From NCBI GenBank assembly GCA_016789105.1, contig JAEURN010000004.1, positions 124,001 through 188,000 of the forward strand: a stretch of DNA of 64,000 nt. Direction: 5' to 3'. The position numbers and the translations under genes are program-made. Of this stretch, positions 51,179 through 57,781 are shown one piece after another. Within the stretch, counting starts at the first letter, position 1. Every line of letters begins with the position of its first letter. The DNA comes from Armatimonadota bacterium. GTDB taxonomy: Bacteria > Armatimonadota > Fimbriimonadia > Fimbriimonadales > Fimbriimonadaceae. The notes beneath the pieces are model-generated. The model was not told the origin of the DNA and ran no database searches. It was given only the letters and a program-made list of their open reading frames with translations.

Positions 51179-54100
51179 CTAGTTTGCCGAGTAGATACGC
51201 GACTCGGCGAGTTCGGTTTGGGCGTTGTCGAGAGCCTTGAGGAAGCTGTGGACGGCCTCCAGCGGGGAGCCGGCAAACGGCCAGATGAGGTCGTCTTGGC
51301 TCATGTAGGCATCGCCCTTGTGCCGGGCAATGATTCCCGGGATGCGGGGATGGGGCGGGTGGTTTTCCGAAAATGTGACCTTGAGCCGGCCCTGGTTCCC
51401 GTCGATCTGTTGGATATGCAGTTCGCGAGCGGTGATGCGGGCCGCCATGATGTCGACGGCGGTTTTGACTTCTTTCGGGAGCCGGCCATACCGGTCTTCG
51501 AGGTCGGCGGCGACTTCGGCAAGGGCAAGGGGGTTGCGTGCGGTCATCAGTTGTTTGTAGAAGTAGAGCCTTTGGGCGGGGTCTTCCACAAAGTGTTCCG
51601 GGATGAGGGCTTGGACGGGGAGATCGATGGCGGGGAGGGGCTCCAATCCGGCGAGGGGGTCTTCGTATCCGGAAGGCCGGTCGCCATCGGCATAGGTTTT
51701 GAGAAATTGGACTTCGCTTTCTATGAGCTGGGTGTAAAGGTCGTATCCGATCGCCATCATCTGCCCGGACTGTTTTGCCCCAAGGATGTCGCCGGCTCCC
51801 CTGATTTGGAGGTCGCGGAAGGCTAGGGAATAGCCAGATCCGAGTTGGTTGAACTCAGCAAGCGCCGTCAGGCGTTCGGTACCGGTTTCCGTCAGCGATT
51901 TATCGGGGGCATAGAGGAGGTAGGCGTACGCTTGCCGGTCGGACCGGCCCACCCGCCCACGGAGTTGATAGAGTTGCGAGAGTCCAAAGTAGTCGGCATT
52001 TTCAACGATCAAGGTGTTGGCGTTGGGGATGTCCAGCCCAGCTTCGACGATAGTGGTGCTAACCAGGACGTCGATCTCCCCTTGGACGAACCCGACCATG
52101 ACCGGTTCGAGTTCTTTCTCCGTCATTTGGCCGTGGCCAACGGCGACCCGGGCATGGGGGACAAGCTTTTTGAGCCGGTCGGCGACATGGTAGATGCCGC
52201 TGACGCGGTTGTAAACATAAAAGACCTGTCCCCCCCGGGCCAATTCCCTCAACACGGCCTCCCGGACGACCTCGTTGCTGGTCGGCCGGACGAACGTCCG
52301 CACGGGGAGGCGTCCGGGTGGCGGGTCGTTGATCAGCGACATCTCCCGAATGTTCATGAGGGCCATGCTCAGGGTGCGGGGGATGGGGGTGGCACTCATG
52401 CTCAGGACGTCGACATTCACCCGGAGCTTCTTCAGCGATTCCTTGTGTTTGACCCCGAATTTTTGCTCTTCATCGATGACGAGCAACCCGAGGTCTTTGA
52501 ATTTGAGCTCGCTGCTGAGGAGGGCATGGGTTCCGATGACGATATCGAGTTCCCCAGACTCCAATTTTTCTAGAGCCTGGCGCCGTTCGCCGGCCGTGAC
52601 AAACCGGTTGAGCAGGGCGATTTCAATATCGAATCCGGCCAACCGCTCTGAGAACGAGCGGTAGTGTTGCTCGCTGAGGATGGTTGTGGGGCAAAGGATG
52701 GCCACCTGTTTGCCGGATTGCGCCACCAGGAATGCGGCGCGGACGGCGACTTCGGTTTTGCCGAACCCGACATCGCCGCAAACGAGCCGGTCCATGGGGT
52801 ACCCGGACTTCAGGTCTTGCTTGACGTCGTTGATTGCCTGAAGTTGACTGGGGGTTTCGACATAGGGAAAGGTGTTCTCCATTTCATGGAGGGTCTCCGC
52901 ATCTGACCGGTAGGCATCGCGGGTGACCTTTTTCCGTTCGGCATAGAGCTTAATGAGATCCCTTGCGAACTCCCGGGCTTCCTCGCGAGCCTTGGCGACT
53001 GCTTTCTTCCACTCCCCCCCCGTAAGCCTGTTTATCTTGGGTTCGGCATCGCTTGGGCTCACATACTTTTGGATTCTGTCGAGCTGGTCGGCCGGGACAA
53101 AGAGCTGGTCGGGGGCTTTGTATTTGATGTGCAGATACTCTTTTTGGATGCCATCTTGGGTCCGCTGCACCAGACCCTGGAAAACCCCGATGCCGAAGTT
53201 GATATGCACCACAAAATCTCCCGGTTTGAGGTCGAGGACGGTGGTGATCGGCATGCCTTCGCTGAACTTGCGTTGCGGCAACTTGAGCCTGGCCACCCCA
53301 TAGAGCTCGTGGTCGGTCATGACGGCGAGGTTTGCCTTTGGAATGGCAAAGCCCGCTGCTGGGTTGCCGTCTATGATGTAGAGCCCCGGTGGCAAGCCAT
53401 CCGATTGATCCCAGGGGTGCCCGTTATCGAGCGCAGTCGGAAAAATTTCGACTTGGGCGAGCACGGATCGTGTCCGGCTCGGCTGGTCGGTGGCAAAAAC
53501 AACGCAAAGCCCCTGGTTGACCCAGTTTTGGATGCTGCGGGTGAGGGCAGCGGGCTGCCCCCGGTAGTTGTCGACCGGAGCGGCCCCAATCTCGAACTCC
53601 TCTGATTGGCCAATCCAGTCCGGGACTGCGTTCATCGCGGTAAGGCTGATGAGGTTGGGGGCGTCGGCAAAATGCTCGGCCGAATGGACGAAGTCGTTGG
53701 CGTGGGATTCGAGGATTTCGCCCCTTTGATGCCGGTGGGAAAGGGCTTCGCCGAGTTCTTCCGCTAAGCGGACAGCCGTCGATTCGAGGTCAAGCGGTTC
53801 GTCGAGGATGAGCAGCCCTTCTTCCCCGAGGTAATCGATTGCGCAGGGCCCGTCGGGTTGGATGAGGGGCCGGTAAAGGTCGAGCCGGTCGAAATAGGTT
53901 TGGTTCTCCAGTGCGAGACGGTCTTCGTTGACCAGTTCCTCAAGGCGTTTGGCAGCATCCTCGCCAAGGTTTGCGGATTCGACTTCAACGGCGCGCTGGA
54001 GCATGTCGTCTAATCCGAGTTCGGGAGAAGGGAGCACGGTCTCGCGGCTGATGCCGATGGAAAAGGCAGGCGCCGGATCGCTTGACCGTTGGGTCATGGG

Positions 54101-54724
54101 GTCAAACCGGCGGATCGATTCGATGGTGTCGCCAAAGAATTCGACCCGGACGGGGAGGTCGTGCCCAACTGGGAAAATGTCGAGGATTCCTCCCCTCCGG
54201 CAGTATTGTCCGGGAACCCGGACCGGATCGGACGCTTCGTAACCCAGTCCCAGGAGTCGGCTGGCCGCCTCTTTCGATTCGATTTCGAGCCCTGGGGCGA
54301 ATTCCAACGTGTTTTCCAGGATGTCGAGGGTGTGTAGGGTTCGTTCGAGGGCCGCCTGAGGTGTGGCGATGACGAAACCGGGTTCTTGAGAAGCGAGGAA
54401 CCTGAGCGACCCAAGTCGGTCGCTGAGGGCGACGGTTTCCGGCGCGGCGTCTTCGAAAAGGGCACTCAGGCCACTTGGCAATAGCCGGATCCGGTCTTGG
54501 GGGACACCAAACAAAATAAGTTTTGCCTGCCAAGAAAGGGCAGCCTCGTAATTGCGGACGACGAGCAGCGTCTGGCGGGGGTTGCTTGCATAGAGCCCGG
54601 CGGCCAGGCAGGGTCGGGCTCCCGCCGAAAGGTGCGACCAAGTTGCCGACCCCCCCCCGGGTTGGGTTGCCTCAAAAAGATTTGGGTGCTGCGTGAGGCG
54701 GCGCGCCAGTTGGTGCAGGCGCAT
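51179..54724 (-). CDS. mfd: Transcription-repair coupling factor
   Basis: Removes RNA polymerase stalled at DNA damage and recruits UvrA. 1181 residues, full length. UvrB-like N-terminal part, RNA polymerase interaction domain (LKPGDFVVHINFGIGVFQGL near 500), then helicase motifs VCGDVGFGKTEVAVRAAFL, LVIDEEQKFGVKHKE, MSATPIPRTLSMAL and TTIVEAGLDIPNANTLIVE, and the C-terminal D7 domain. A G9 run (complement of 54650-54658, QPGGGSATW) lies near codon 22 and another G8 near 52984. CATAAT and AGGA precede the ATG. Confidence 0.97.
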   Translation of the reverse strand: MRLHQLARRLTQHPNLFEATQPGGGSATWSHLSAGARPCLAAGLYASNPRQTLLVVRNYEAALSWQAKLILFGVPQDRIRLLPSGLSALFEDAAPETVALSDRLGSLRFLASQEPGFVIATPQAALERTLHTLDILENTLEFAPGLEIESKEAASRLLGLGYEASDPVRVPGQYCRRGGILDIFPVGHDLPVRVEFFGDTIESIRRFDPMTQRSSDPAPAFSIGISRETVLPSPELGLDDMLQRAVEVESANLGEDAAKRLEELVNEDRLALENQTYFDRLDLYRPLIQPDGPCAIDYLGEEGLLILDEPLDLESTAVRLAEELGEALSHRHQRGEILESHANDFVHSAEHFADAPNLISLTAMNAVPDWIGQSEEFEIGAAPVDNYRGQPAALTRSIQNWVNQGLCVVFATDQPSRTRSVLAQVEIFPTALDNGHPWDQSDGLPPGLYIIDGNPAAGFAIPKANLAVMTDHELYGVARLKLPQRKFSEGMPITTVLDLKPGDFVVHINFGIGVFQGLVQRTQDGIQKEYLHIKYKAPDQLFVPADQLDRIQKYVSPSDAEPKINRLTGGEWKKAVAKAREEAREFARDLIKLYAERKKVTRDAYRSDAETLHEMENTFPYVETPSQLQAINDVKQDLKSGYPMDRLVCGDVGFGKTEVAVRAAFLVAQSGKQVAILCPTTILSEQHYRSFSERLAGFDIEIALLNRFVTAGERRQALEKLESGELDIVIGTHALLSSELKFKDLGLLVIDEEQKFGVKHKESLKKLRVNVDVLSMSATPIPRTLSMALMNIREMSLINDPPPGRLPVRTFVRPTSNEVVREAVLRELARGGQVFYVYNRVSGIYHVADRLKKLVPHARVAVGHGQMTEKELEPVMVGFVQGEIDVLVSTTIVEAGLDIPNANTLIVENADYFGLSQLYQLRGRVGRSDRQAYAYLLYAPDKSLTETGTERLTALAEFNQLGSGYSLAFRDLQIRGAGDILGAKQSGQMMAIGYDLYTQLIESEVQFLKTYADGDRPSGYEDPLAGLEPLPAIDLPVQALIPEHFVEDPAQRLYFYKQLMTARNPLALAEVAADLEDRYGRLPKEVKTAVDIMAARITARELHIQQIDGNQGRLKVTFSENHPPHPRIPGIIARHKGDAYMSQDDLIWPFAGSPLEAVHSFLKALDNAQTELAESRIYSAN

Positions 54725-54791: not shown

Positions 54792-55301
54792 ATGGACTCC
54801 GGGAAGGCACTCACCGCAGGGATTTGGATCACCGGTGCGCTTGTGTTCGCACTGGGGTTCCGTATTGTCTCGGGCCTGGGGAATGGGCCCGGTCGGCCGA
54901 TGCCCCGATTTTCGATGCAGACCGTTGACGGAGAAAAACTCGCCAACCAGGATGTTGCGGGCCGCGTTGTGTTGTTTTATGTCAGCGGCGAAGGGTGAGG
55001 GGCTTGCGAAGCCGCCGGTCCGGCGGTTACCAGGATTTTCGACAGCTACCCGGAAAAACGGGTTGCCGTCATCGCCGGCGACGCTTGGAATGACGACCGG
55101 GCCGGGGCGGCGGCGCTATCCAAAAAACTCGGAGTCCCGACCGCAGTGGGGATCCGGCAAGTGGCCAGGGCGTTCGGCTCGCACAGCGTCCCGTTTTTTG
55201 TGGTTGTCGGCCGCGACGGTCGCGTTGTTCACACGCAAGTAGGATTTGGCGACGGGCAACCGTTGGAAGATGCGGTCAACCGGGCTTTGACCGCCCGGTA
55301 G
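54792..55301 (+). CDS. Thioredoxin-fold protein, candidate selenoprotein (UGAC motif)
   Basis: ATG 54792 to TAG 55299-55301, 169 codons with an in-frame TGA at codon 69 (54996-54998). Signal/anchor helix at about 10-29 (GIWITGALVFALGFRIVSGL). Upstream of TGA the sequence reads FSMQTVDGEKLANQ then VVLFYVSGEG. Downstream it continues GACEAAGPAV in the same frame, with the cis-Pro motif HSVPFFVVVGRDGRVVH (Pro134). Together these are one uninterrupted redoxin/TlpA-like fold in which TGA stands for the first Cys of CxxC, giving U-G-A-C. Alternatives: nonsense mutation or base-call error. Divergent from mfd. Confidence 0.78.
55010..55028 (+). promoter_or_regulatory. SECIS-like hairpin downstream of in-frame TGA
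   Basis: AGCCGCC-GGTCC-GGCGGTT forms a 7-bp stem (one G-T pair) with a 5-nt loop beginning GG. The loop starts 18 nt after the TGA, inside the 16-37 nt range used for bacterial SECIS prediction, and GGTC also occurs in the E. coli fdhF SECIS loop. A competing smaller hairpin GGCTT/AAGCC lies at 55001-55013. Confidence 0.6.
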
Positions 55302-57055: not shown

Positions 57056-57781
57056 TCACCGGCCATAGCCGGGGGGGCGGAACAGGATCAGGTCGGCAAT
57101 GCGGTGGTAGCCGAGTTTGGGATAGAGTCGGGCACCATCGGAGCTTGCAGCCAAAACGCTTAGGGAGTCTGGGTTATCTTGCAAAAGCGCCGACATGAGG
57201 GCGGCGCCAATCCCTTGACTGCGGTGGCGGTGTTGGACAAAGAGGTTGCTGACCCAGGTTCCCAATCCGCCGATCCGGAGAGAGCTCACCCAGCCGACCG
57301 GCTCCCCCTCCAGAAAGCAGGCATAAAGCCGGTTGGGAGCATCGGGAACCCCAACGTGTTCCAGCTCGATGTGCTTGGCCTTTGAGATCTTTTGGATGTG
57401 GAGGACCATGTCCAGCGAGTCAATACGACGCACATCGTGCCCAAAGCAGAGGGTGGCTTGCGCCGGTTCGAGCGTGAAGAACGGTTCGGTGGAAAACCGG
57501 CGCCAACCGTGGCCTTTAAAGAGCCGGGCGGCGGATTCCAAACTTTGGTGGACGGGGACGGCTAGTGCCAAGCTCCACCGGTTCGCCGGGATCGATTCCC
57601 CGACTCTCAAAATCAGCTCGGGGTCTGCGGTGGCGGTGATGAGCTCGGCGGCGCGGGCCTTTGGCCGGTGGGGAGTATCCGCCAGGATCCAAACCCCATC
57701 TTGGAGTCGGGGCACGACCGGATAGGCTCGGGATCGGATCTGCGAAAACGCCCGGGCAAAGACTTCTAGCGGGACGTCCAC
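57056..57781 (-). CDS. GNAT family N-acetyltransferase, 241 aa
   Basis: GTG start at 57781. The C-terminal half carries the acetyl-CoA site: GEPVGWVSSLRIGGLGTWVS, NLFVQHRHRSQGIGAALMSA (R/Q-x-x-G-x-G/A) and SDGARLYPKLGYHRIADLIL. The N-terminal half is a degenerate domain. Substrate unknown. Monocistronic, divergent from the PEP-CTERM gene at 57928. Confidence 0.88.
   Translation of the reverse strand: MDVPLEVFARAFSQIRSRAYPVVPRLQDGVWILADTPHRPKARAAELITATADPELILRVGESIPANRWSLALAVPVHQSLESAARLFKGHGWRRFSTEPFFTLEPAQATLCFGHDVRRIDSLDMVLHIQKISKAKHIELEHVGVPDAPNRLYACFLEGEPVGWVSSLRIGGLGTWVSNLFVQHRHRSQGIGAALMSALLQDNPDSLSVLAASSDGARLYPKLGYHRIADLILFRPPGYGR

Follow-up and report, generated by a model that had tools for sequence, protein, structure and literature searches.

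An open reading frame that begins at ATG 54792 on the forward strand of the window, by which we mean the whole 64,000-nucleotide stretch of an Armatimonadota genome analysed here, is broken by a TGA codon at 54996-54998 and continues in frame to a TAG at 55299-55301. The question that it raises is whether this TGA ends the protein or is read as selenocysteine (Sec). We conclude that UGA 54996-54998 is very probably read as Sec, which would occupy the active site of a thioredoxin-like enzyme with a predicted membrane anchor.

The reading frame and its predicted fold

Translation of 54792-55301 gives 169 residues plus the stop codon, with a single internal stop, as an earlier note on this DNA had described. 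The TGA falls at residue 69, in the place of the nucleophilic Cys of a CxxC motif, so that the motif would read UGAC; its resolving residue, Cys72, is encoded by TGC at 55005-55007 (forward strand). The Pro134 codon at 55191-55193 (forward strand) corresponds to the thioredoxin cis-Pro position, within SVPFF. Both Cys72 and Pro134 are invariant in the orthologues and in a Cys-containing homologue. When the read-through protein was compared with Pfam, Redoxin (2.2e-9) and AhpC-TSA (8.5e-9) both scored over the gathering cut-off and both matches span the TGA. The placement of the TGA on the first Cys of CxxC, the continuity of the fold across it and the cis-Pro, all proposed in the earlier note, are thus borne out.

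A profile search of the PDB placed ResA and related thiol-disulfide oxidoreductases closest (ResA, 9.2e-12), and the predicted structure, in which one of five models was confident (mean pLDDT 74.8, pTM 0.70), also best matches the ResA fold (TMt 0.84, E 3e-11). In this model Sec69 would lie just ahead of a helix (residues 72-85) and after the central strand (59-65). A hydrophobic membrane anchor is predicted from the sequence at the N-terminus (54816-54875, forward strand), where the low-confidence part of the model has a helix at residues 13-25; in both orthologues a predicted lipobox, LAGC, replaces it. These features point to a TlpA-like thioredoxin fold with a CxxC-type site and a cis-Pro, in which Sec would stand for the first Cys. 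The protein appears to share with Bacillus ResA (PDB 4nmu, 1su9) the fold, a TlpA-like domain with a predicted membrane anchor, the position of the CxxC motif and the cis-Pro. The two are about 20-24% identical, and the first Cys of ResA would be Sec in the window protein. The NCBIfam ResA model PRK03147 (NF002854) gave 35.7 bits where its curated threshold is 170 bits, and for the clade to which this protein belongs, marked by the sequence SGEG-U-GAC, all NCBIfam models stay below their cut-offs.

Conservation of the TGA, the Sec machinery and the downstream hairpin

Among 151 genomes, comprising the source genome and its relatives, close orthologues were found only in two others of the same genus, G005 and G006, and a scan of named genomes returned the same two: CP021423 (Armatimonadetes bacterium Uphvl-Ar1), which is G006, and the metagenome-assembled PNMZ01000017, which is G005. 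The G006 genome belongs to an uncultured member of the Armatimonadetes found in a Microcystis enrichment and was obtained by long-read sequencing (PMC5629041). Both orthologues are 63-65% identical to the window protein and have TGA at the same codon, within a conserved SGEG-TGA-GACE. Since two other species have TGA at this codon, its occurrence in frame is far beyond chance. Over the 100 codons after the TGA there is no indel and identity is 74%; codon differences there are 44 synonymous and 26 non-synonymous, with dN 0.22 and dS saturated or beyond estimation, and between G005 and G006 dN/dS is about 0.06. These values indicate that the codons downstream of the TGA are under purifying selection. 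This conservation of UGA and frame spans three species of a single genus and, because G005 and G006 are closely related, effectively two independent lineages. Further afield, the TGA column is Cys in all WCxxC homologues aligned and in the homologue L027 of genome G047, which has TGC at this codon and in whose genome selA had no match.

In all three species the gene lies head to head with mfd, which encodes the transcription-repair coupling factor and in the window occupies 51179-54724 on the reverse strand. In the other five genomes of the genus, of eight in all, the gene is absent beside mfd; all five have mfd itself, and no remnants of the gene were found upstream of it. In G007 (L100), a short spacer and a GNAT gene occupy the place beside mfd. 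The G007 mfd is the closest (79%), and that genome is without the selenoprotein gene. Its GNAT gene resembles window 57056-57781 (reverse strand), so the genes between may have been gained or lost as a block. In G006 (L060:6840-9262), the orthologue is followed by an insertion of about 1.3 kb that encodes small ankyrin-repeat-like proteins; a second copy of its final 36 codons lies at L060:8100-8207, and an RHS-like C-terminal fragment comes after this copy.

The source genome (2.75 Mb, 99.96% complete) encodes the Sec pathway. Profile searches of it identified selA (432 bits), selB (332 bits over the cut-off, including the C-terminal winged-helix part) and selD (351 bits), and tRNA-Sec (selC) was found at 72.7 bits and confirmed by ARAGORN with anticodon TCA. 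The four sel genes that the earlier note had named as the first thing to look for are therefore all present. In the wider set, selA is over the cut-off in 86 of 151 genomes. The selD gene of the source genome (L047, C8:168775-169692) is itself interrupted in frame by a TGA, at the site known to hold Sec or Cys, within the motif SCSG-U-AGK; a strong hairpin follows, the folded loop of which begins with C rather than the G of the bacterial SECIS (bSECIS) rule.

The earlier note had also pointed to a 7-bp hairpin with a GGTCC loop at SECIS-like spacing. We recover this putative SECIS upper hairpin at 55010-55028 (forward strand), with arms AGCCGCC (55010-55016) and GGCGGUU (55022-55028) and a loop, GGUCC (55017-55021), that starts 18 nt after the UGA. 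All three species preserve the upper stem CCGCC/GGCGG and the loop GGUC(C/U) at the same 18-nt offset; in G005 and G006 only a 5-bp upper hairpin, with the loop GGUCU, is kept. The lower stem is not conserved, and in G005 and G006 the first 50 nt, when folded freely, favour an alternative lower pairing. According to the bSECIS rule, the apical loop of a stem-loop lies 16-37 nt after the UGA and has a G in its first two positions (PMC13188914); the loops of the three species start at +18 and have this G. The E. coli fdhF SECIS, as verified in E. coli genome sequences, has the same GGUC(U) loop, also starting 18 nt after the UGA; the window hairpin differs from it in stem sequence, in that no bulged U was identified, and in the lack of a lower stem conserved between orthologues.

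How much weight the hairpin can bear depends on how strictly it is defined. Of the 1803 TGAs on both strands of the window, 4.1% do equally well by a permissive version of the bSECIS rule, and the hairpin on its own is weak evidence. With a strict fdhF-like geometry (a GGUC loop exactly 18 nt after the UGA and a stem of at least 5 bp), 54996-54998 is the one TGA of the 1803 to qualify. Between the window and G006, fourfold-degenerate sites are unchanged at 7 of 7 positions in the first nine codons after the UGA and at 18 of 48 in the rest (Fisher p 0.0024; p 0.013 with twelve codons), a comparison that is supportive only, because the nine-codon stretch was picked to fit the hairpin. The free-folding z-score of the region is weak, varying with the stretch chosen between -0.07 and -2.0, and folding energy is therefore not taken as proof. 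An Rfam search matched no SECIS model, even at a low threshold, where the hits were due to chance.

Together, these computations show the continuity of the frame, the conservation of the TGA, the presence of a Sec pathway, the homology to Cys proteins and the fold. From them we infer that Sec is inserted into the product of 54792-55301.

Alternative readings and proposed mechanism

UGA readthrough occurs in general, and the codon could be read as Trp, Gly or Cys by reassignment or by near-cognate decoding. This has a very small chance of being correct: TGA is an ordinary stop that ends 10 of the 16 genes predicted in this part of the window, the genome has a dedicated Sec system, and the homologues place a catalytic Cys at this position. 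It is smaller still for a TlpA-like gene in decay whose TGA arose by chance as a stop. The patchy distribution of the gene within the genus would suit decay, but the TGA is common to three species at saturated synonymous distance and the frame beyond it has stayed open under constraint in both orthologues; this conservation refutes a pseudogene, and it upholds the earlier argument that a random nonsense mutation was improbable. Nor do we give more than a negligible probability to a sequencing or assembly error hiding a true TGC or TGT; a single base change does separate TGA from a Cys codon, but the TGA is present in three separately assembled genomes, that of G006 from long reads (PMC5629041).

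A different kind of alternative accepts the selenoprotein and disputes its chemistry, making it mainly a peroxidase of the Prx-like type rather than a disulfide reductase of the ResA/TlpA type. The best Pfam matches, Redoxin and AhpC-TSA, would fit this, and catalogued relatives are called Prx-like (PMC13188914). However, a UxxC motif, in which the resolving Cys follows three residues later, and the closeness of ResA by both sequence profile and fold, suit disulfide exchange better, and we consider the peroxidase unlikely, if much less so than the preceding alternatives. Because of the ResA profile and fold matches, the predicted N-terminal anchor or lipobox and a DsbD_TM protein encoded in the same genome, which could pass electrons outward, we infer that the protein reduces disulfides outside the cytoplasm, with a selenolate as its nucleophile. 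The best explanation overall, which we hold with high confidence, is a selenoprotein with SECIS-directed Sec insertion, an exported ResA/TlpA-like oxidoreductase with UxxC.

We propose that SelB and Sec-tRNA-Sec bind the stem-loop directly after the UGA and would insert Sec as the first residue of UxxC. The product would be exported and held at the outer face of the inner membrane, by a signal anchor in the window protein and as a lipoprotein in the orthologues, where it may act as a thiol-disulfide oxidoreductase like ResA and TlpA. The selenolate would attack a substrate disulfide (or an oxidised thiol or peroxide), with the substrate and direction of reaction presumed; Cys72 would resolve the mixed selenenyl-sulfide, and a membrane protein of the DsbD/CcdA type, the presumed electron donor, would probably re-reduce the enzyme.

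Relation to known selenoproteins and origin of Sec

The earlier note had called the gene a candidate new selenoprotein. The selenoprotein part of this description is supported, and the word new has to be qualified: UxxC selenoproteins are listed in PF00578 (AhpC-TSA), PF08534 (Redoxin) and cd02966 (TlpA-like) (Table 1 of PMC13188914), and this kind of selenoprotein is therefore already known. The window protein has in common with them the domain matches (PF08534, PF00578), the UxxC motif and Cys homologues; its clade, with SGEG-U-GAC and Gly for Trp before the active site, appears to stand apart from the catalogued UxxC families. Our literature search found no account of selenoproteins in Armatimonadota.

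In six distant TlpA-like genes of the phylum (L054-L059, in G136, G132 and G149), TGA likewise replaces the codon of the first Cys of CxxC, and a hairpin of 7-8 bp, for example GCGGA-GGC-UCCGC, follows shortly; these genes are probable UxxC selenoproteins by sequence. They share with the window gene the fold family, the position of the TGA and a hairpin directly after it, but form a separate clade. A tree of 38 Armatimonadota homologues groups the three Sec proteins with support (100/96); their clade is apart from these six genes and is joined with the Cys protein L027 (95/95), the placement of which is unsure because it sits on a long branch. The starred branches of the tree require at least two switches of state between Sec and non-Sec. 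In the window clade, Sec seems to have an origin of its own, distinct from that in the other UxxC TlpA-like proteins of the phylum. On balance we favour, with some reserve, a separate Cys-to-Sec conversion among the extracytoplasmic TlpA-like proteins of this Armatimonadota family, which would have given rise to a small uncatalogued subfamily (SGEG-U-GAC) independent of those other proteins.

Standard gene calling would stop the protein at residue 68 or miss the gene, which is therefore likely to be mis-annotated. Read through its UGA, the gene offers a compact, clean test case for Sec in extracytoplasmic thiol chemistry.
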